Assembly (NCBI GenBank): GCA_021775355.1
Contig: JAJFHZ010000029.1
Span: 1-64,000 of the forward strand
Length of the DNA: 64,000 nt
Direction of reading: 5' to 3'
Origin: Amylibacter sp.
GTDB lineage: Bacteria; Pseudomonadota; Alphaproteobacteria; Rhodobacterales; Rhodobacteraceae
Shown here: positions 43,416 to 51,736 of the stretch, piece by piece
Layout: each line of letters begins with the position of its first letter
Numbering within the stretch: the stretch's first letter is position 1
Notes under the pieces: generated by a model
Databases searched by the model: none
Told to the model about the DNA's origin: nothing
Seen by the model: the letters and a program-made list of their open reading frames with translations, nothing else
Position numbers and translations under genes: made by a program

Positions 43416-43928
43416 TCAAGTCGTTTCCCTTTCGATCCTGTAATGTTTAGGCATTGTCATGCCCATGTTTTTGCACAGTTGTTCAAGACGTTTCAGCAAT
43501 TCCTGATTACTCATGGCCTCGTAGTTGACCTTGTGATCGACCTGTAATTTGGCCCCATATTTTTCAGGGCGCATCTTGCTGGCTTTCCACTTGCGTGTAT
43601 CAATACGAAGCCTGTCACGGTTGATATGATCGTGATTAACCTTTGGGCCGTTCTCAGTCTGGATGATGTCTTTGCTTGAATCATCGGCAATTGCTATGAT
43701 TTCATCGGCAAAATGATCCGCCTGTTCCGCCCGCGCCAGCGCGTAGTTCGAAAGGAAATCGGGGTTGTTCTTCAGCCAAACCCGAACATTCTTGGGTGCT
43801 GGCATTCCATCTTGCCTACACACCGCCGCAAGTGACATGCCATTTGCTATGTCCTCACATATCTTATCGGCCTTTGTCTTTGTGTAGCTTGATGGCCTGC
43901 CCAATTTACCTATGGAGTTTGCTGACAT
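43416..43928 (-). CDS. Phage terminase small subunit-like protein (isolated)
   Basis: About 170 residues from the ATG at 43928, which has AAGGGG eight bases upstream. Longer frames from 43958 or 44003 lack such a site. The segment GRPSSYTKTKADKICEDIANG is a typical terminase-small helix-turn-helix start, followed by VRVWLKNNPDFLSNYALARA and the acidic ADEIIAIADD segment. Such proteins bind phage DNA ends and pass them to the large subunit. No large subunit or other head gene is present, so this is a prophage remnant or has been kept for another use. Confidence 0.8.
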   Translation of the reverse strand: MSANSIGKLGRPSSYTKTKADKICEDIANGMSLAAVCRQDGMPAPKNVRVWLKNNPDFLSNYALARAEQADHFADEIIAIADDSSKDIIQTENGPKVNHDHINRDRLRIDTRKWKASKMRPEKYGAKLQVDHKVNYEAMSNQELLKRLEQLCKNMGMTMPKHYRIERETT

Positions 43929-44135
43929 CTGCTTAGCCCCTTCTTTGTTTTGATCCATTTTACCATCATTAATCCTTCGCGCAACATAACAAGCGACTGA
44001 CACTTAAACCTGTTCAAATAGAATACCGCAAATGGGCCAAAGGTTGAAATTTCAGGTGATCCAAATGAGGTATTCTTGGATTGAGGCATATGCCGCCGAT
44101 GCTACCGTATTCGCACTGCACGAACGGCAGCTGAA

Positions 44136-44447: not shown

Positions 44448-45242
44448 CTACCTTGCCGATATCAAACTCCCGATCACGCTGGATGTGAGAAAAGCAATCG
44501 CGGCGACGCAGACGATTGATGGCCCTGCGGGTGTATCAAATACATAGGCCGCACGCAGACCGACCACTGCTGACAGCATCCCGATTATCCCAGCAGCGAC
44601 AGCCATTCCCTCAGGGGTCCGTGACATCGGCCGCGCAGCGGCTGCAGGAATGATCAGCATAGCTGCTATCAACAGAACGCCGACAACCTTGATCGCCACT
44701 GCAACCGTGATCGCAAGTGCAAACGTCAGGACGAGTTGTTCACGCTTGGGGTCAATCCCGCTTGCATGGGCCAGATCCTCATTCAGCGTCGAAGTTAGCA
44801 GGGCAGACCAGCGCCAGCCGGTCAGCATCACCACAAGTGCAGCACCTCCCCAGATGACCGAGAGGTCACCACGCGAGACGGCAAGTATGTCGCCAAAGAG
44901 ATACGCCATCAGGTCGATGCGCACGCCGGACAGGAACGAAACGGCCACAAGCCCAAAAGCGAGTGCAGAATGTGCAAGCACCCCCAGCAATGTATCCATC
45001 GCATAGCCTCTACCAGATATCACGCTTACCGTCAGTGCCATCAGCAGGGCCACAGCCATCGTGCCGATGAAGATCGGCATGGAAAATGCCAACGACAAAG
45101 CTACACCAAGGATTGCCGCGTGTGCTGTGGCATCACCAAAATAGGCCATACGCCGCCAAACCACAAAGCACCCCAATGGTGCCGCTGCAATGGCAACGCC
45201 TATTCCAGCCAAAGCAGCACGCACCATAAAATCATCAAACAT
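44448..45242 (-). CDS. znuB: Zinc ABC transporter, membrane subunit ZnuB
   Basis: A 264-residue membrane protein of the ZnuB/MntB family with about eight spans, forming the channel for zinc delivered by ZnuA. The segments LGCFVVWRRMAYFGDATAHAA and GVLLIAAMLIIPAAAARP are characteristic of the family. Its ATG overlaps the znuC stop by one base, so the pair is coupled. The operon order zur-znuC-znuB with divergent znuA is common in alphaproteobacteria. Confidence 0.95.
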   Translation of the reverse strand: MFDDFMVRAALAGIGVAIAAAPLGCFVVWRRMAYFGDATAHAAILGVALSLAFSMPIFIGTMAVALLMALTVSVISGRGYAMDTLLGVLAHSALAFGLVAVSFLSGVRIDLMAYLFGDILAVSRGDLSVIWGGAALVVMLTGWRWSALLTSTLNEDLAHASGIDPKREQLVLTFALAITVAVAIKVVGVLLIAAMLIIPAAAARPMSRTPEGMAVAAGIIGMLSAVVGLRAAYVFDTPAGPSIVCVAAIAFLTSSVIGSLISAR

Positions 45243-45991
45243 TATTCAACGGCCTCTGTGTGATTGTGGGTATGTTTATCATGATCGTGCCCGTGATCAT
45301 GTTCATGGCGGTAAAGCGCCAAAGCACCGCCTGTTCCCGTGCCAAATAGCGCACGATATTCTGGTGCCGATGCCACTACGGCGGGCGTGCCTTCACAGCA
45401 AACGTGGCCGTTGAGGCATATTACACGGTCAGAGGCACTCATCACAACGTGTAATTCGTGGCTGATCATCAAGACTGCGCAACCAGTATTCTGCCGTACC
45501 TGATCGATTTGTTGGTAAAAAGAGGCTGAACCGCGTTGGTCCAGCCCTTGTGTGGCCTCATCCAGTAGCAACAGATCAGGCTTTCCAATCAGAGCACGTG
45601 CTAGCAACACCCGTTGAAATTGCCCGCCTGAGAGTTGCGACAGTTGCGCTTTGGATAAATCTGGCACACCAGCCTGTGTCAACGCTTGATCAATGTCTGT
45701 TGCTGTTCTTCCGCTCGGCAGCTTCAGAAACCTTGCAACTGTGATCGGCAACGTCTTATCGATATGCAGCTTTTGCGGGACGTAACCAATTGTAACGCCG
45801 CTTCCTCGCGTGACATGACCTTGGAACGGTTTCATAGCGCCGATTATGGTTCGCAAAAGGCTGGTTTTACCAGATCCGTTTGGGCCAACGATGGTCACGA
45901 TCTCGCCCGGTTGAACACTCAGGGAAACGCGTGACAAAACTGTTCTTGCCCCATAACGGACGCTGAGGCCTTCGACCTGCACAAGGCTCAT
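45242..45991 (-). CDS. znuC: Zinc ABC transporter, ATPase ZnuC
   Basis: The 249-residue ATPase has Walker A GPNGSGKT (36-43), the signature LSGGQ (120-124) and Walker B ending LLLLDEAT (about 140-147). The last 21 residues form a His/Asp-rich tail (about 229-249, alternating His-Asp-His) that could bind zinc and sense or buffer it on the cytoplasmic side; similar tails occur in other ZnuC proteins. It overlaps the zur stop region by four bases, so it is coupled with it. Confidence 0.95.
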   Translation of the reverse strand: MSLVQVEGLSVRYGARTVLSRVSLSVQPGEIVTIVGPNGSGKTSLLRTIIGAMKPFQGHVTRGSGVTIGYVPQKLHIDKTLPITVARFLKLPSGRTATDIDQALTQAGVPDLSKAQLSQLSGGQFQRVLLARALIGKPDLLLLDEATQGLDQRGSASFYQQIDQVRQNTGCAVLMISHELHVVMSASDRVICLNGHVCCEGTPAVVASAPEYRALFGTGTGGALALYRHEHDHGHDHDKHTHNHTEAVE

Positions 45992-46503
45992 GCGCCTGCC
46001 TTGTCAGCGCAGGCGGGGCAAACGCCCTCGGCCTCTACTACGGTACGCTCTATCTGGAAGCCAGTAGCGCGGGCAGCGTTACCCAACGCACCCCGTGCCG
46101 GGGATGACTGGGTTTCGGCCACTGCGTCGCACAAACGACAGATCATGAAGGCGGGCGCGTGAGACACGCTGGGATGGGCGCAGGCGATAAACGCGTTCAG
46201 CCGCTCGATCTTGTGGGCCAACCCATTCAACACAAGAAAATCAAGCGCACGATAAGCGACAGGCGGCTGAGATCCAAACCCGTCCTCGCGTAGCCGATCT
46301 AAAATCACATAGGCTCCAAGTGCCCTGTGTTCCTGCAACAATATCTCTAACACCTTGCGGCGCACGGGCGTAAAACGAAGTTCGTCTGACGCGCAACGGG
46401 CCTCGGCAGCGGCGAGCGTGTTACTCACACACGCGTCGTGATCATGATGCGCAAACCCAAGCGCGCCGTCGCTAGCGTCGCCATTCTTAAAGTCTATTGT
46501 CAT
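45988..46503 (-). CDS. zur: Zinc uptake regulator, Fur family
   Basis: A 171-residue Fur-family repressor that should shut zinc uptake genes when zinc is bound. The DNA-binding region is seen around VAYRALDFL (82-90). The structural zinc site has two cysteine pairs, CRLC (122-125) and CPAC (162-165). An added His/Asp stretch (AHHDHDAC, about 18-25) at the N-terminus is unusual. A Zur box overlaps its start codon, so it is probably autoregulated. It is the first gene of zur-znuC-znuB. Confidence 0.93.
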   Translation of the reverse strand: MTIDFKNGDASDGALGFAHHDHDACVSNTLAAAEARCASDELRFTPVRRKVLEILLQEHRALGAYVILDRLREDGFGSQPPVAYRALDFLVLNGLAHKIERLNAFIACAHPSVSHAPAFMICRLCDAVAETQSSPARGALGNAARATGFQIERTVVEAEGVCPACADKAGA

Positions 46504-46547
46504 GTTATAACATTTCGCCTATATGGTCCGTTATGTTATAAAATCAC
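46502..46547. promoter_or_regulatory. Zur boxes between zur and znuA
   Basis: ATGTTATAACATTTC (46502-46516) contains a perfect 12-base palindrome and matches a half of the alphaproteobacterial Zur box. A second, weaker site TTATGTTATAAAATCAC lies at 46531-46547. One site faces zur and one znuA, so both directions should be zinc-repressed. Confidence 0.8.
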
Positions 46548-46559
46548 ATGGAGACTCCG

Positions 46560-47513
46560 ATGTCCAGAAAACTTCTTACCATATCACTGATTACTACATT
46601 GGTGGGAAAGGTCGCTTTTGCAGAAGTACCTCATGTCGCGGTTGATATTGCGCCAGTACACTCATTGGTCGCACGGGTTATGGACGGGGTCGGCACGCCC
46701 GATCTTATTGTTCAGCCTGGTGCTAGCCCGCATGAATACAGTCTACGCCCGTCTGAAGCGAAGGCACTGCAAGACGCCGACCTCGTGTTCTGGACCAGTT
46801 CTGGTCTGACACCATGGCTTACCGATACAATCGAGACACTAGCTACTGATGCCTCTGTTACAGAATTGCTTGAAGCTGATGGTTCGATTGAACTGGAACT
46901 CCGTGAAAGCGCCCTGTTTGAGGTCCACAACCACGGCGAGCATGATGACGACCACGACGACGAGGCCCATAAAGACCATGAAGACGCACATGATCCACAT
47001 GCTTGGCTGTCGCCGAAAAATGCAATGACATGGTTGAATGTGATTGCAGGCCAACTTTCCGCAGCTAATCCGGAAAACGCAGGAACATATTTTGCAAATG
47101 CCGCTGCGGGGCGTTCCGAAATTGAAGCATTGATTGGTGAGGTCAACGCAACGCTGGAACCGGTTCGCGGTGAGCAGTTCATCGTTTTCCACGACGCCTA
47201 TCAGTATTTTGAAACGGATTTCGATTTCCTTGCATCCGACGCAATTTCATTGAGTGATGCCTCTGATCCAAGCCCGGCACGAATTGCTGGAATTCAGGCG
47301 TGGATAGCAGAGGAAGGTATCCGTTGCGTTCTGGCAGAACCACAGTTCAATCCGGGTCTAGTTGAAACAGTTCTAGATGGGACGGAAGCACAGACGGGTA
47401 TTCTTGATCCGCTTGGCTCAGATCTGGAGCTGGGATCGGCACTTTACGCCCAACTTATCCGGAATCTGTCAATCGCTCTTGCAGGATGTCTGCAACCGCA
47501 TCAGGGTGGTTGA
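46560..47513 (+). CDS. znuA: Zinc-binding periplasmic protein ZnuA
   Basis: The 317-residue substrate-binding protein delivers zinc to ZnuBC. A signal peptide covers about residues 1-21. The family GASPHEYSLRPSEAKAL segment with zinc ligand His58 and the HDPHAWLSP segment after a His/Asp-rich loop (about 123-147) are present, as is the FHDAYQYFETDF segment. I use the ATG at 46560, preceded by GGAG; an ATG four codons upstream would place the GGAG inside the gene. It is divergent from zur and has Zur sites upstream. Confidence 0.95.
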   Translation: MSRKLLTISLITTLVGKVAFAEVPHVAVDIAPVHSLVARVMDGVGTPDLIVQPGASPHEYSLRPSEAKALQDADLVFWTSSGLTPWLTDTIETLATDASVTELLEADGSIELELRESALFEVHNHGEHDDDHDDEAHKDHEDAHDPHAWLSPKNAMTWLNVIAGQLSAANPENAGTYFANAAAGRSEIEALIGEVNATLEPVRGEQFIVFHDAYQYFETDFDFLASDAISLSDASDPSPARIAGIQAWIAEEGIRCVLAEPQFNPGLVETVLDGTEAQTGILDPLGSDLELGSALYAQLIRNLSIALAGCLQPHQGG

Positions 47514-47682
47514 ACTGCAGATATGTGGGAGAAACTGACCGTTCATACTTGTCACCATAATGTCGGAATGTGCGGAGAGCAGAGATTGCGTCAACTGTAG
47601 TTTTTAGTTCACATTATGTTGCGAAATTCCGCATGAAGCTTTTATTCGACATAGGGTTGTGACGTTATTATTCAGTTGATAT

Positions 47683-47704
47683 TTGTTACTTTATAAAATA
47701 ACAA
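47683..47704. promoter_or_regulatory. Palindromic Zur-type box before the second zinc operon
   Basis: TTGTTAC-TTTATAAA-ATAACAA is a 22-base near-perfect palindrome (a single mismatched pair) 28 bases before the regulator's ATG. Its TGTTA/TAACA arms resemble the Zur boxes at 46.5 kb. Confidence 0.7.
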
Positions 47705-47731
47705 AAAATAAACAAGCAAGAGGAACCTCTA

Positions 47732-48118
47732 ATGCGCAAGCTTGCAGCAACACGGCAATCGGATGTTTTGGATGTCTTACATGCACAAGATAAGCCTATG
47801 ACGGCCTATGCAATTTTGGACCGTATGAAAGCAGATGAGCCACATCTTGCGGCACCCACTGTATACCGTGCACTTGCAGCTTTGACAAATCAGGGGCGCG
47901 CGCACAAATTGGAATCCATCAAAGCCTTTGTGCCTTGCCGTTGTTGTCATGATGCTTCGGTTCCTGTGCTTGCTATTTGTGAAGACTGTGGAACTGTCGA
48001 GGAGCATGATGGGGTTCAGTTGCTTAAGGAATTATCAACGATTTCGGCAAAGAGCCAATTCACTGCTGCGCGACACATCGTTGAAATCCACGGCCAATGC
48101 AGACAATGCTCTCGTTAA
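47732..48118 (+). CDS. Second Fur/Zur-family regulator
   Basis: A compact 128-residue Fur-family protein, about 40 shorter than the zur product. The winged-helix region has APTVYRALAAL (41-51). Cysteine groups CRCCHD (69-74), CEDC (83-86) and CRQC (123-126) leave two full pairs for structural zinc plus extra ligands, and EIHG supplies a late His. AGAGGAA lies before the ATG. It heads a cluster of zinc-uptake-like genes under its own box, so the natural reading is a dedicated zinc-responsive repressor. It could also respond to another metal. Confidence 0.88.
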   Translation: MRKLAATRQSDVLDVLHAQDKPMTAYAILDRMKADEPHLAAPTVYRALAALTNQGRAHKLESIKAFVPCRCCHDASVPVLAICEDCGTVEEHDGVQLLKELSTISAKSQFTAARHIVEIHGQCRQCSR

Positions 48119-48151
48119 TAAAATTATTATAGAAACAAAAGGGTTACAGAC

Positions 48152-48754
48152 ATGAAAACACTTCCACTAGCTGCGGTTGTCGTTGTTACAGCAACATCAG
48201 CTTTCGCCGAAGAAGCGCGCCAAGTTGATGCGCATGAACATGGTGTAGGCCAATTGGATATTGCCTTTGATGGCAATCAGATTGCGATAGAGCTGCATGC
48301 GCCAGGGTCTGATATTGTAGGCTTTGAATATGCTGCGGAAAGCTCTGATGATCGTGCCGCTGTTGATGCAGCTGTTGCGAAACTGGCGGTGCCACTTGAT
48401 CTGTTTGTTCTGCCAGCTGCCGCTGCATGTAGTGTGGTTCAGGCAAGTGCCGAATTAGAGAGTGAAGACGCGCATGAAGAAGAGCATGCCAATGACGATC
48501 ACGCGGAACATGATGAAGAACACAATGAGGCTGACCACGCGAAACATGAGGAAGAAAGTGGACATACGGAGTTCCACGCAGAATACCTTTTAACATGTGC
48601 TCAACCTGATGCTGCATCTGAGATTACATTTACGTATTTTGAGACCTTTCCAAACGCGCTAGAACTTGAAGTGCAGGTTGTGTCGGACGCGGGTGCGAAT
48701 GCATTTGAGGTGGAGCGCGATAACCCAAAGCTTGATCTACGCGGCATGTTTTAG
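48152..48754 (+). CDS. zrgA: DUF2796 protein, ZrgA-like zinc-binding periplasmic protein
   Basis: The 200-residue protein has a signal peptide (about 1-19, ending AFA), the DUF2796-type start DAHEHGVGQLDIAFDG (27-42), then ELHAPG (47-52), and an insert rich in His, Glu and Asp (108-142) that should bind several zinc ions. The C-terminal part (TFTYFETFPNALELEVQ) is the usual family end. In Vibrio, zrgA encodes a zinc-regulated protein of a second zinc uptake system; the name here follows family and context. It lies 33 bases after the regulator and 11 before the ATPase. Confidence 0.85.
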   Translation: MKTLPLAAVVVVTATSAFAEEARQVDAHEHGVGQLDIAFDGNQIAIELHAPGSDIVGFEYAAESSDDRAAVDAAVAKLAVPLDLFVLPAAAACSVVQASAELESEDAHEEEHANDDHAEHDEEHNEADHAKHEEESGHTEFHAEYLLTCAQPDAASEITFTYFETFPNALELEVQVVSDAGANAFEVERDNPKLDLRGMF

Positions 48755-48765
48755 GCGACCCTAGA

Positions 48766-49467
48766 GTGTCAGACGAAACGCCAATTTTAGAACTAGAAGA
48801 TGTCCGCTATCGCTGGCCAGGGCGGACATCTTTTGGGCTATCTGTTCCTGCATTCGGTTTGAAATCTGGTGAAACGGTTTTATTGTTAGGCGAAAGTGGG
48901 TCAGGTAAATCAACGTTACTCTCTTTGATTTGTGGAACGGTTACTGCAAATTCAGGCAGGGTGACCGTTTCTGGAACAGACATAGCATCGCTTTCGGCGG
49001 GGCAACGGGATCGGTTTCGTGCTGAACAGATTGGCCTAATCTTTCAGCAATTTAATCTGCTCCCCTATGCAAATGTGCTGGATAATATTCTGCTGCCTTT
49101 GCGATTTGCACCAGAGCGTCGAAGTCGTGTGAACGCGCCTCAAGATGAGGCAATAAAGCTATGCCAAGACTTAGGTTTGCCTCGCGATGTGATTAATGCA
49201 CGCGCAGGGACACTTAGTGTTGGGCAACAGCAACGGGTTGCTGCCGCACGTGCGTTGATCGGACAACCCTCGCTTATTATAGCGGATGAACCAACGTCTT
49301 CTCTTGATGCCGCAACACAGATCACTTTCCTAGATTTGTTTTTTGTGCAGTCTCGCGTGCATGGGACAACACTTTTAATGGTAAGCCATGATGCGCGATT
49401 AGCTGAACAATTTGATCGTGTCGTGCAGATGTCAGATATTGCCAAGGTTGAAAGAGAGACCTCATGA
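48766..49467 (+). CDS. MacB/LolD-type ABC ATPase of the Zrg-like system
   Basis: A 233-residue ATPase (GTG start) with Walker A GESGSGKST (42-50), signature LSVGQQQR (150-157) and Walker B ending IIADEP (171-176). Sequence type is MacB/LolD, not ZnuC. Such ATPases pair with FtsX-fold permeases, and the next gene, overlapping by four bases, is one. In zrg-type clusters this pair replaces the classic importer. The exact zrg letter for this gene is not assigned here. Confidence 0.88.
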   Translation: MSDETPILELEDVRYRWPGRTSFGLSVPAFGLKSGETVLLLGESGSGKSTLLSLICGTVTANSGRVTVSGTDIASLSAGQRDRFRAEQIGLIFQQFNLLPYANVLDNILLPLRFAPERRSRVNAPQDEAIKLCQDLGLPRDVINARAGTLSVGQQQRVAAARALIGQPSLIIADEPTSSLDAATQITFLDLFFVQSRVHGTTLLMVSHDARLAEQFDRVVQMSDIAKVERETS

Positions 49468-50714
49468 TTTTACGTCTTGCCTTTGGTTCACTTATGGCCC
49501 GTGCACTGACTGTTGGCATGACTATCCTTGCAATCGCTTTGTCGGTTGCGTTGTTTCTTGGGGTTGAAAAAGTACGCACTGGGGCTAAGGCTAGTTTTGC
49601 AGACACGATTTCGGGTACTGATTTGATAGTTGGTGCGCGGTCTGGTTCTGTGCAACTCTTGCTTTATTCGGTGTTCAGGATTGGAAATGCCACCAACAAC
49701 CTGACTTGGGAAAGCTACCAAGATATTGCCGCGCGGCCTGAAGTGGATTGGATTGTACCAATTTCATTGGGCGACAGTCATCACCAATTCCGTGTGATGG
49801 GAACGACAACCGCATTTTTCGATCGTTACAAGTATCGTTCTGGACAATCACTGGAGGTACGTGATGGCGCTATCATGTCTGATCTTTTCGACACAGTGAT
49901 CGGGGCCGATGTTGCTGCGACGCTTGGATATGAAATTAACGACCCAATTGTGGTGGCGCATGGATTGGCTTCGTTCACTGAACATGATGATCAACCCTTT
50001 CGTGTTTCTGGTATTTTGGAAAAAACGGGAACGCCTGTAGATCGTACTGTGATTGTTAGCTTGAAAGCCATTGAGGCTATTCATGTAGATTGGAAAAGCG
50101 GCGCTAAGACCTCTGGCAAGTCGACAGCTGCTCATGTGATCCGAGAAATGGAACTGCAACCCCAAGCGGTGACGGCTGCCTTTGTCGGTGTCAAAGGTCG
50201 CTTGCAAGTCTTCGGCTTGCAAAGATCGATTAATGAATACAAACAAGAGCCGCTTTTGGCAGTCTTACCAGGTGTTGCATTGCAAGAACTCTGGCAGATC
50301 GTTGGTATTGCTGAAACTGCCCTGATAGCTGTTTCGGGAATGGTCGTTATTACAGCTCTTATAGGTATGATGGCCACGATCTTTTCCAGCCTGAATGAAC
50401 GTCGCCGCGAAATGGCGATCTTTCGGGCTATGGGTGCGCGGCCACGCGTTATTCTTGGGCTGCTGGTGCTAGAGGCTAGTTTAATGACAGCAATTGGCGC
50501 GATCTTGGGTCTTATGTTTCTTTATATCGGTCTCTTCATTGTACAACCGCTTGTCGATAGTGCGTTTGGGCTTTGGCTTCCAATCGATCCACCGACCTTG
50601 CGCGAGGTGTGGGTCTTATTGAGTGTTATAGCTGCTAGCGCAATTGTGAGCTTGGTACCTGCCTTGAGAGCCTATCGTTTATCTCTTGCCGATGGTATGA
50701 TGGTTAAAATTTAA
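49464..50714 (+). CDS. FtsX/MacB-type permease of the Zrg-like system
   Basis: The 416-residue inner-membrane protein has one N-terminal span (about 10-32), a large periplasmic domain (about 33-270) and three C-terminal spans, the FtsX arrangement. The FtsX-domain segment SLNERRREMAIFRAMGARPRV is very clear. Permeases of this fold normally act on lipoproteins, peptides or envelope signals by a mechanotransmission mechanism rather than as ion importers, which makes a zinc role mechanistically odd. It overlaps the ATPase gene by four bases and is 15 bases before the next gene. Confidence 0.88.
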   Translation: MILRLAFGSLMARALTVGMTILAIALSVALFLGVEKVRTGAKASFADTISGTDLIVGARSGSVQLLLYSVFRIGNATNNLTWESYQDIAARPEVDWIVPISLGDSHHQFRVMGTTTAFFDRYKYRSGQSLEVRDGAIMSDLFDTVIGADVAATLGYEINDPIVVAHGLASFTEHDDQPFRVSGILEKTGTPVDRTVIVSLKAIEAIHVDWKSGAKTSGKSTAAHVIREMELQPQAVTAAFVGVKGRLQVFGLQRSINEYKQEPLLAVLPGVALQELWQIVGIAETALIAVSGMVVITALIGMMATIFSSLNERRREMAIFRAMGARPRVILGLLVLEASLMTAIGAILGLMFLYIGLFIVQPLVDSAFGLWLPIDPPTLREVWVLLSVIAASAIVSLVPALRAYRLSLADGMMVKI

Positions 50715-50729
50715 AAAGGGTATGAGAAG

Positions 50730-51233
50730 ATGAGTTTATCACGCCGAAATTTTATTGCTGTTGCGACGGCTTTTGCTGGCCTACCGCGCAGTGTTCATGC
50801 AACAACACCGCGTGAGATTACCTGGGACGATCTTATCCCCCCAGGTGTGCCTTATTCCGAGATTGTTGGTGAAGGTGAGATGGATGAGCAAAATGATGTA
50901 TGGAGCCCTGTATTTGATGCAAATGCCACAAAGCTAAATGATGCTTTGGACGGCGCATATATCAAGATGCCTGGTTTCATTATTCCGATTGATATATCGA
51001 CAAAAGGTGTTACGAGCTTTGTTCTTGTGCCTTATGTTGGGGCTTGCATACACACGCCGCCGCCGCCGCCGAACCAATTGGTGTTTGTCACCAGTAAAAC
51101 ACCATGGCCCGATGATAACCTATGGGAGGCTGTATGGGTTATCGGACAAATGCAGCATGAATTGCAATCCACGGAAGTTGCTGAAACCGGGTATACTTTG
51201 GTTGCGGACAAGATGGAGGTTTACGTTTGGTAG
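50730..51233 (+). CDS. DUF3299 protein, first copy
   Basis: A 167-residue exported protein with a twin-arginine-like start (SRRNFIAVATAFAG) and a conserved core: ITWDDLIPPG (29-39), PGFIIPIDI, and GACIHTPPPPPNQLVFV, the Cys-His-Pro-rich segment that marks DUF3299. The Cys-x-His pair could bind metal. In zrg-type clusters DUF3299 proteins are part of the system, but their role is unknown. The stop overlaps the start of the next copy by seven bases. Confidence 0.85.
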   Translation: MSLSRRNFIAVATAFAGLPRSVHATTPREITWDDLIPPGVPYSEIVGEGEMDEQNDVWSPVFDANATKLNDALDGAYIKMPGFIIPIDISTKGVTSFVLVPYVGACIHTPPPPPNQLVFVTSKTPWPDDNLWEAVWVIGQMQHELQSTEVAETGYTLVADKMEVYVW

Positions 51234-51736
51234 ACTTTCGTTTGGATCGCAGAGCCGCTCTGGTTGGCATCGGTGCACTGACATTCCTTCCACAAATAAC
51301 CCACGCCAAAGACTACATTGATCTAGATTGGTCAGACCTGTTACCACACGGTCAGATAGCAATTCCACCAATGCTGCAGGATTTGATTGACCACGAACAA
51401 ACAAATCCCATGAGCCGGCAACCTGGATCTATGGGAGTGCGCTCCGATTGGAATGGTCAGATTGTTCGTATTCCAGGGTTCATCGTTCCTATTGATTATT
51501 CAGGGACCGGCGTGACAGCATTCATTCTTGTACCATTTGTGGGGGCATGTGTGCATGTACCACCCCCGCCTGCCAATCAGCTTGTTTTTGTTACGACGGA
51601 AACAGCGCATGAGAGCATAGGATTATATGAATCTGTGGATGTAATTGGAATCTTTGGAACAGCTTCAATAACAACCCAGCTTGCGCAAGTTGCTTATGCT
51701 CTATCCGCAGATCGCATTATACCTTACAAAAGGTAG
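51227..51736 (+). CDS. DUF3299 protein, second copy
   Basis: A 169-residue paralogue of the gene before it, with the start VDFRLDRRAALVGIGALTF giving a possible twin-arginine signal. It has the same core motif in the form GACVHVPPPPANQLVFV and the matching IDLDWSDLLPHG near residues 32-43. The start is TTG at 51227, supported by GGAGGT six bases upstream, and it overlaps the previous stop. The two copies differ at most positions outside the core, so the duplication is old and the proteins may form a pair. Confidence 0.85.
   Translation: MVDFRLDRRAALVGIGALTFLPQITHAKDYIDLDWSDLLPHGQIAIPPMLQDLIDHEQTNPMSRQPGSMGVRSDWNGQIVRIPGFIVPIDYSGTGVTAFILVPFVGACVHVPPPPANQLVFVTTETAHESIGLYESVDVIGIFGTASITTQLAQVAYALSADRIIPYKR

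Follow-up and report, generated by a model that had tools for sequence, protein, structure and literature searches.

The zrg locus of Amylibacter sp.

The stretch analysed here (64,000 nucleotides, hereafter the window) comes from Amylibacter sp. of the Rhodobacteraceae (positions 1 to 64,000 of contig JAJFHZ010000029.1, assembly GCA_021775355.1) and carries a cluster of six genes, beginning with furZ, which encodes a Fur-family regulator, and continuing with zrgA, the genes for an ATP-binding cassette (ABC) ATPase and a permease, and two genes for DUF3299 proteins (table 1). Gene names follow Vibrio usage, in which ZrgC is the ATPase and ZrgB the permease. The original prediction, made from the letters of the window, placed a box and these six genes on one strand with short gaps, and all of them are indeed found there on the plus strand: furZ and zrgA are separated by 33 bp, zrgA and the ATPase gene by 11 bp, and the permease gene and the first DUF3299 gene by 15 bp, and the ATPase and permease genes overlap by 4 bp and the two DUF3299 genes by 7 bp. 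Simple scans for promoters and terminators gave no excess over shuffled sequences. Immediately upstream of the operon lie the divergent zur-znuC-znuB genes and znuA.

Table 1. Features of the zrg locus and of the neighbouring znu genes in the window.
Feature	Position	Strand	Remarks
FurZ operator	47682..47705	none	24-bp palindrome TTTGTTACTTTA/TAAAATAACAAA; 20-bp core starts 48 bp before the furZ start codon
furZ	47732..48118	+	128-amino-acid Zur-type regulator of the Fur family; own clade, not a Zur orthologue
zrgA	48152..48754	+	His-rich zinc-binding-protein family PF10986 (formerly DUF2796); Sec-type leader by inspection
ATPase gene	48766..49467	+	MacB/LolD-type ABC ATPase, ZrgC counterpart; GTG start
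Permease gene	49464..50714	+	MacB/LolE/FtsX fold, ZrgB counterpart; four hydrophobic stretches; large loop with four invariant His
First DUF3299 gene	50730..51233	+	ZrgE/PA4066 family; twin-arginine-type leader
Second DUF3299 gene	51227..51736	+	paralogue; TTG start, 7-bp overlap with the first, RR in leader
Two ordinary Zur-box-like sites	46497..46549	none	zur/znuA gap; 2 and 1 mismatches; contrast to the FurZ operator
zur	45988..46503	-	canonical Zur, beside znuCB
znuA	46548..47513	+
znuC	45242..45991	-
znuB	44448..45242	-	ABC-3 permease

Pfam assigns all six products to families: FurZ matches FUR (3e-09), ZrgA matches PF10986 (3e-52; 177 bits against a cut-off of 27.4), the ATPase ABC_tran (3e-31), the permease both FtsX (6e-15) and MacB_PCD (4e-13), and the two DUF3299 proteins their namesake family (7e-37 and 1e-34). 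The original prediction hinged on matches to DUF2796 and DUF3299, and both were obtained; against the NCBIfam equivalog, ZrgA scores 183.9, slightly below the cut-off of 185. Among solved structures, FurZ is closest to E. coli Zur (4MTD, 4e-19) and ZrgA to PA4063 (7AHW, 7e-29), with a further ZrgA match to 8EZW (1e-14), an entry titled 'Zinc-binding protein' that we take to be ZrgA of Vibrio cholerae. Both DUF3299 proteins match 4HSP (3e-27 and 1e-23), the structure of PA4066 (PMC8561739; for this and the other papers cited, our statements extend to the excerpts available). The Pfam matches and these relatives among PA4063-PA4066 uphold the view of the cluster as an alphaproteobacterial counterpart of Zrg. 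Its description as complete stands for the core families and needs qualifying in two respects: no zrgD (DUF2607) was found among the cluster open reading frames (ORFs) of at least 80 amino acids that were listed and scanned, and there is an extra DUF3299 gene.

Conservation and phylogeny of FurZ

Of 292 genomes from the order, 63 encode a ZrgA that exceeds its Pfam cut-off; at the 63 zrgA loci (the window included), the permease gene adjoins zrgA in 50, here called full clusters, and zrgA stands alone in 13. Directly before zrgA, furZ is present in 20 of the 50 full clusters and intact in 19. A scan of named genomes with two peptide patterns yielded 86 FurZ relatives, 80 of which were kept; the record titles name Rhodobacteraceae, Paracoccaceae or genera of the Rhodobacterales, except for one Robiginitomaculum metagenome-assembled genome and one 'uncultured Alphaproteobacteria'. 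In all 78 of these 80 loci that have downstream room, no more than 45 bp separate the furZ stop codon from the start of a zrgA ORF, the contigs of the other two ending too early. The two sets overlap, since 14 of the 19 intact FurZ proteins of the order set recur as identical proteins in the 80 named loci. The survey of neighbouring genes thus confirms both the existence and the conservation of the built-in Fur-family regulator.

The plasmid collection contains 68 records matching FurZ, 56 of them from Phaeobacter, where the annotation reads only 'Fur family transcriptional regulator' in all rows listed and the plasmids measure 207-291 kb among those listed. Plasmid pPGA2_239 of P. inhibens 2.10 carries furZ-zrgA-ATPase-permease-DUF3299 (PGA2_RS18710-18730), with one DUF3299 gene and an operator with two mismatches. 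On this plasmid (locus L311, NC_018421.1, 191160-203540), the zrg unit is flanked by dmdD/acyl-CoA dehydrogenase and response-regulator/glutamate-methyltransferase genes.

FurZ is not the only Zur-type regulator of its hosts. In a survey of 30 zrg genomes, each of the 19 with intact furZ holds at least one other Zur-type gene (two in the genome of the window, G000, and in G221), and we therefore rejected the idea that furZ is the sole Zur-type gene of a genome; a single Zur-type gene is present in each of the other eleven, ten lacking furZ and one carrying a decayed copy. Of the canonical zur loci, 17 from 16 relatives were inspected (nine of these loci from eight genomes with intact furZ), and znuA, znuB and znuC adjoin zur at all 17.

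In a tree of 50 Fur-family proteins, the 17 rows of FurZ form a single clade (support 100/99), separate from the clade of the 19 rows of canonical Zur (97/98). FurZ groups (97/99) with nine regulators from other alphaproteobacterial families. ZnuA- or ZnuB-like genes lie near eight of these regulators, and the locus of the remaining one, L269, shows an ABC ATPase match only. The fetched stretches of L262, L266 and L269 contain CobW-family (COG0523-type) genes. Three rows found with the FurZ profile (L270, L274 and L280) and Zur_L268 sit as outliers on long branches outside both main clades. Judged from its sequence, then, FurZ is a Zur-type paralogue and not a Zur orthologue. A side observation concerns the FurZ-like regulators of other families at L261-L268, which have ZnuA/ZnuB-like genes beside all eight and Zur-like boxes (at most two mismatches) at seven; we read them as other zinc modules with a local regulator.

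An apparent private operator

The FurZ operator is described by a 20-bp consensus built from related loci, TGTTAYTTTATAAARTAACA, which occurs in the window without a mismatch at positions 47684-47703, within an inverted repeat of 24 bp that is 92% complementary and has no spacer. A second match in the window, with three mismatches (46529-46548), lies inside the zur/znuA gap; the mean over 100 dinucleotide shuffles was 0.00. Among 77 loci with at least 80 bp of upstream sequence, 76 have the operator at up to three mismatches; in 74 of these it begins 43-56 bp ahead of the furZ start codon, the outliers lying at -28 (L198) and -86 (L220). Searched at the same threshold, 20 whole genomes yielded a single site next to furZ wherever furZ is intact (19 genomes) and four further sites, each with three mismatches and resembling an ordinary Zur box, one of them being the site in the zur/znuA gap of the window; a control with the reversed pattern gave 0 or 1 match per genome and strand. 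As far as sequence can tell, FurZ thus seems to regulate a single target.

The operator core TTATAAARTA is found in 19 of 19 clusters with intact furZ and 0 of 30 without furZ, a descriptive contrast drawn from the 300 bp before furZ or, where furZ is missing, from a stretch running from -300 to +200 relative to the first zrgA start codon. Of the wider set, 72 of 77 have the core. Half of the clusters without furZ (15/30) have a TGTTAT-N3-ATAACA box with at most one mismatch. Mismatch counts to a 22-bp consensus, tried as a separator of the two kinds of cluster, failed, L050 (no furZ) having two and L073 (furZ) five. The idea that the palindrome belongs to canonical Zur alone was rejected, as its presence tracks furZ. 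The two Zur-box-like sites in the zur/znuA gap are the only ones in the window, with a chance expectation of 0.23 and at least two in 4 of 100 shuffles.

In the genome with the decayed furZ (G004, locus L060), furZ is an 87-amino-acid remnant whose metal-binding middle is gone, the operator lacks the FurZ core and matches the Zur box perfectly, and the only site in the genome is one of the four Zur-box-like ones. In the permease tree, the clusters with furZ all fall within one clade of 38 rows (99/91) and are scattered inside it, so that at least five changes are forced, and ten were counted. The simplest account, we infer, is one gain of furZ followed by repeated loss, with reversion of the operator to a Zur box.

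By its geometry, the FurZ site may in our own reading combine two Zur-type palindromes that overlap with an offset of 5 bp, a value derived from the contact list of the E. coli two-dimer Zur complex (PMC4219657); FurZ positions 30 and 33, which align with the Asp49/Arg52 dimer-dimer bridge, are variable. At up to two mismatches, the FurZ box is absent from L261-L270, FurZ-like loci of other families, and the private operator is therefore not a trait of the wider FurZ-like group; Zur-like boxes (at most two mismatches) occur in seven of these ten loci.

The predicted sensor residues of FurZ

Numbering the ligands by pairwise alignment to 4MTD and by the published ligand list (PMC4219657), we find seven of the eight E. 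coli Zur ligands matched in FurZ. Site A is complete (C83, C86, C123 and C126, equivalent to C103, C106, C143 and C146), and site B keeps H58, C69 and E91 (H77, C88 and E111). The base-contacting residues Tyr45 and Arg65 are likewise retained as Y26 and R46. The position of the eighth ligand, His96, whose placement near a gap is uncertain, is altered, FurZ having a shorter loop with C71 and H73. These two residues are invariant in the wider set (81/81, a figure partly built in for C69 and C71 because one of the two scan patterns, AFVPCRC, preselects both) and in the order set (19/19); the 19 intact FurZ proteins of the latter, the window included, were found without the pattern, and all have C69, C71 and H73. 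The metal affinity or specificity of FurZ may thus differ from that of E. coli Zur.

Permease, ATPase and DUF3299 proteins

The permease model, computed from a 53-row alignment (predicted local distance difference test score, pLDDT, 77; predicted template-modelling score 0.55), matches LolE, MacB, HrtB and FtsX, with a best Foldseek E-value of 3e-15. Superposition with VIA-align gave Z scores of 18.9 for MacB 5GKO (355 residues, root-mean-square deviation, rmsd, 4.0 Å), 19.8 for MacB 5NIK (356 residues, 9.0 Å), 22.3 for LolE 9RLD (370 residues, 9.2 Å), 18.5 for HrtB 7W7A (319 residues, 7.5 Å) and 24.6 for a pneumococcal transporter (355 residues, 9.2 Å). Neither list of fold matches contains a classical importer in the 50 rows shown. 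The model accordingly points to a MacB/LolCDE fold, that is, a type VII ABC permease. Proteins of the MacB/LolCDE type move or signal mechanically and not via an import channel, and such action of this fold is also discussed in PMC11481552. The ATPase and the permease are separate chains, and no MacA- or HlyD-like gene was found among ten proteins scanned at the locus, so that the permease has the fold of MacB and the locus lacks the one-chain and MacA features of MacAB-TolC. A ZnuABC-type system, with an ABC-3 permease domain and a ZnuA-type binding protein, does not fit either, the zrg permease being MacB_PCD/FtsX and the binding protein ZrgA.

Hydropathy reveals four membrane stretches in the permease, with a loop at about 40-275 between the first two that is probably periplasmic, going by family topology. 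All 31 aligned rows share nine residues of the loop (D53, D104, H106, H166, H174, D193, E204, H207 and E262), a count that includes the window protein twice, as one of the 30 loci (the best-scoring of 72 positive genomes) is the window's own; 21 rows come from outside the class. The model, weak at 168-174, is unable to reveal a site. We know of no such set of histidines in canonical MacB.

The two DUF3299 proteins of the window, encoded by tandem and overlapping genes, are 36% identical. A Cys-x-His before PPPPxNQ (C-x-H-x-PPPP-x-NQ) is invariant in 21 of 21 aligned DUF3299 rows, and a twin-arginine-type leader was detected in 75 of 81 by a loose pattern applied to ORFs that possibly start too early; these leaders suggest that the proteins are exported folded. 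A single-sequence AlphaFold model of the first protein (pLDDT 39.5) was not used, and we relied on the solved relative 4HSP instead. Across the 50 full clusters, two DUF3299 genes occur in 32, one in 17 and none in one, and pairs are found in 17 of the 20 clusters marked by furZ and in 15 of the 30 others.

Distribution and genomic context

Samples at higher ranks gave ZrgA in 26 of 385 genomes of the class and the permease (E at most 1e-60) in 72 of 398 genomes of the phylum, from which the zrg cluster appears to be ordinary in Pseudomonadota. The original prediction held such a unit to be little or not described in Rhodobacterales. The unit as such is not rare there, with 63 ZrgA-positive genomes and 50 full clusters. 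In the open-access literature, as far as the excerpts available go, neither a zrg cluster headed by a Fur gene nor the FurZ operator was found described. In PMC12537917, the available portion mentions ZrgA only in the reference list. What is new here is the regulator FurZ with its own operator; the zrg cluster itself was already known.

The position directly after znuABC-zur, true for the window, looks incidental: within stretches of 9 to 16 kb, znuABC-zur adjoins zrg in two of 50 full clusters (the window and L071 of G080), and the wider named scan added L159 and L170. The znuA and znuB profiles used for this count were each built from two sequences and later scored at least 204 (znuA) and at least 355 (znuB) on the 17 znu clusters of relatives. 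On these counts, we rejected znu adjacency as part of the system. The genome of the window has two ZnuA-family proteins, one in the window and one at C15:59860, and an additional zur-znuC-znuB set whose Zur-like boxes overlap (G000:C16:95423-97457, L123), next to which no znuA was found. Near the zinc genes of the window, a phage-type small terminase gene lies at 43416-44003 on the minus strand (Sf6_terminase, 2e-38).

The 13 zrgA loci without ABC genes (L032-L039, L041, L042, L063, L091 and L092, without L040) form a different context. In the two examined, L034 and L041, zrgA has an imelysin gene (PF09375) as its neighbour; L034 also has a BFD-like gene, and L041 has genes of the ferritin-like and HupE/UreJ kinds. 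ABC-less ZrgA possibly has a metal role other than zinc.

Proposed function of the operon and alternative explanations

We consider it fairly probable that furZ, zrgA and the ATPase, permease and two DUF3299 genes make up one autoregulated zinc-starvation operon, with FurZ as its single-target autorepressor and zrg as an ATP-driven handler of periplasmic zinc. The proposal builds on what can be read from the sequences, namely the gene set, the FurZ clade, the operator and its co-variation with the regulator, the permease fold and the invariant histidines, and it supplies by inference zinc as the effector, repression, and the direction and nature of zinc movement. When zinc is sufficient, zinc-loaded FurZ would occupy the private palindrome just upstream of furZ and keep the operon silent; when zinc falls, FurZ would release the operator, canonical Zur retaining the znu genes and its other targets. 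The type VII ATPase would then work mechanically on periplasmic partners, with no import of zinc through a channel, and zinc would be passed among ZrgA, the periplasmic histidines of the permease and the DUF3299 proteins, with ZrgA as a donor of low affinity and the DUF3299 proteins either accepting the zinc or acting as partners. The zinc handed over could feed periplasmic zinc users or ZnuA. To our knowledge, ATP-driven zinc handover inside the periplasm is not established for any system. More speculatively, the roseobacter group may respond to zinc starvation in two tiers and with two zinc sensors acting in parallel, a scheme in which FurZ, through its rebuilt loop C69-x-C71-x-H73 and private operator, would control only a type VII ABC machine that hands over periplasmic zinc with ATP, and in which loss of furZ would bring the operon back under Zur by operator reversion; this broader scenario we put forward tentatively.

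Several observations weigh against the proposal. The association of the operator core with furZ (Fisher p 5e-14) ignores shared ancestry, and because the core was picked after viewing the alignments, the contrast of 19/19 with 0/30 is not blind. Locus L170 has FurZ without the operator, and in 15 of the 30 clusters without furZ no Zur box within one mismatch is present in the stretch examined. The operators of furZ clusters themselves differ from a Zur box by one to three mismatches (nine of 19 by one, none by 0), and Zur may therefore also bind them. FurZ scores 85.9 bits against the NCBIfam Zur equivalog, below the cut-off of 167; no protein in any of the 30 genomes passes it, which makes this cut-off unsuited to canonical Zur here too. 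Because His96 is not conserved and the C71/H73 loop is found instead, the effector could differ from zinc. As regards transport, zrgA of V. cholerae acts as an import component (PMC9820375), data from P. aeruginosa indicate export of cobalt-pyochelin (PMC11481552), and a non-ribosomal peptide synthetase (NRPS) condensation domain (E at most 1e-20) is present in seven of the 30 zrg genomes (G008, G142, G183, G004, G198, G112 and G058).

The zrg genes might encode a second plain zinc importer, in which ZrgA binds the solute, the ATPase and permease carry it to the cytoplasm, and FurZ is a second copy of Zur with the same regulon. The homology of ZrgA favours this, as does the behaviour of Vibrio mutants: V. 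cholerae zrg mutants in a znuA background grow more poorly without zinc, zrgA being required (PMC9820375), and V. parahaemolyticus needs zrgA for growth at low zinc (PMC9817125). We nevertheless regard such an importer as unlikely, given a permease that is MacB_PCD/FtsX in Pfam and MacB/LolCDE-like in fold, with classical importers missing from the rows shown, and a FurZ with a clade and an operator of its own and one furZ-linked site per genome. The 'zinc uptake' of the original prediction is one of two published views, and the 2024 mBio study (PMC11481552) argues for the other, export in P. aeruginosa.

Alternatively, zrg might export a metallophore or a metal complex, in the manner suggested for PA4064-PA4065 and cobalt-pyochelin. 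Such export agrees with the MacB fold of the permease, with the P. aeruginosa genetics just cited and with the NRPS domains of the seven genomes. The other 23 zrg genomes, the window's own included, lack an NRPS condensation domain, and 29 of 30 lack a nicotianamine-synthase match, by a profile whose sensitivity for bacterial relatives was not checked (the exception, G001, scores 27.2 bits, barely above the cut-off), so that metallophore export of the pyochelin kind is improbable as the general job of zrg; a general pyochelin-linked exporter was rejected on the NRPS count. The lack of a MacA-like gene among the ten proteins scanned and the invariant His and Asp residues of the permease, which fit direct metal handling and were seen in an alignment with 21 of 31 rows from outside the class, also speak against an exporter, and we give this explanation a small chance. 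A smaller one still goes to the possibility that the altered site of FurZ responds to a different metal or to a redox signal, which zrg would then serve: it would make sense of the invariant extra C71 and the shifted H73 in the sensor loop, and it is at odds with the seven retained ligands together with Y26 and R46, with the ZnuA- or ZnuB-like genes beside eight of the nine nearest FurZ relatives and with the Zur boxes in half of the zrg clusters without furZ.

In the furZ-headed clusters, a second Zur-type protein has become tied to one operon with its own operator, the pair has apparently been lost repeatedly, and the operator differs accordingly, which amounts to a natural experiment in splitting metal sensing. 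Roseobacter zrg may also offer a cleaner setting for the function of Zrg and PA4063-PA4066, since 23 of 30 genomes show no sign of NRPS-made metallophores, and the plasmid copy of P. inhibens 2.10 provides a named strain in which the unit is testable.

Comparison with known systems

The closest described relatives are the zrgABCDE operons of V. cholerae and V. parahaemolyticus, which are zinc/Zur-repressed and share with the window the DUF2796 protein ZrgA, the ATPase ZrgC, the permease ZrgB and the DUF3299 protein ZrgE (PMC9820375, PMC9817125). The window differs from the V. parahaemolyticus operon in having furZ at the operon head in place of zrgD (DUF2607), a gene that is not universal, being absent from V. 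fischeri and P. profundum, and from the Vibrio operon in its two DUF3299 genes and its operator (PMC9817125). PA4063-PA4066 of P. aeruginosa comprises the same four families in a Zur/zinc-repressed operon of four genes, with one DUF3299 gene and, in the excerpts available, no built-in regulator described (PMC11481552, PMC8561739); it is this operon for which the role of a cobalt-pyochelin exporter has been proposed (PMC11481552).

The available accounts of zinc repression in E. coli, P. denitrificans, Vibrio and P. aeruginosa feature one Zur per cell (PMC4219657, PMC5387054, PMC9820375, PMC9817125, PMC11481552, PMC8561739). Zur of Paracoccus denitrificans is encoded beside znuA and binds 15-bp boxes of the GTAATGTAATAACAT type at several targets (PMC5387054), in contrast to the 20-bp private palindrome of FurZ. 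Compared with E. coli Zur (4MTD), FurZ has equivalents of the ligands and base-contacting residues listed above and departs from it in the shorter site-B loop, the replacement of H96 by C71/H73 and the apparently single-target operator. The permease resembles those of MacB, LolCDE, HrtBA and FtsX (type VII ABC) in fold; the zrg system differs in that its ATPase is separate from the permease (unlike in MacB), that no MacA-like gene was found at the locus and that the large loop has invariant histidines.

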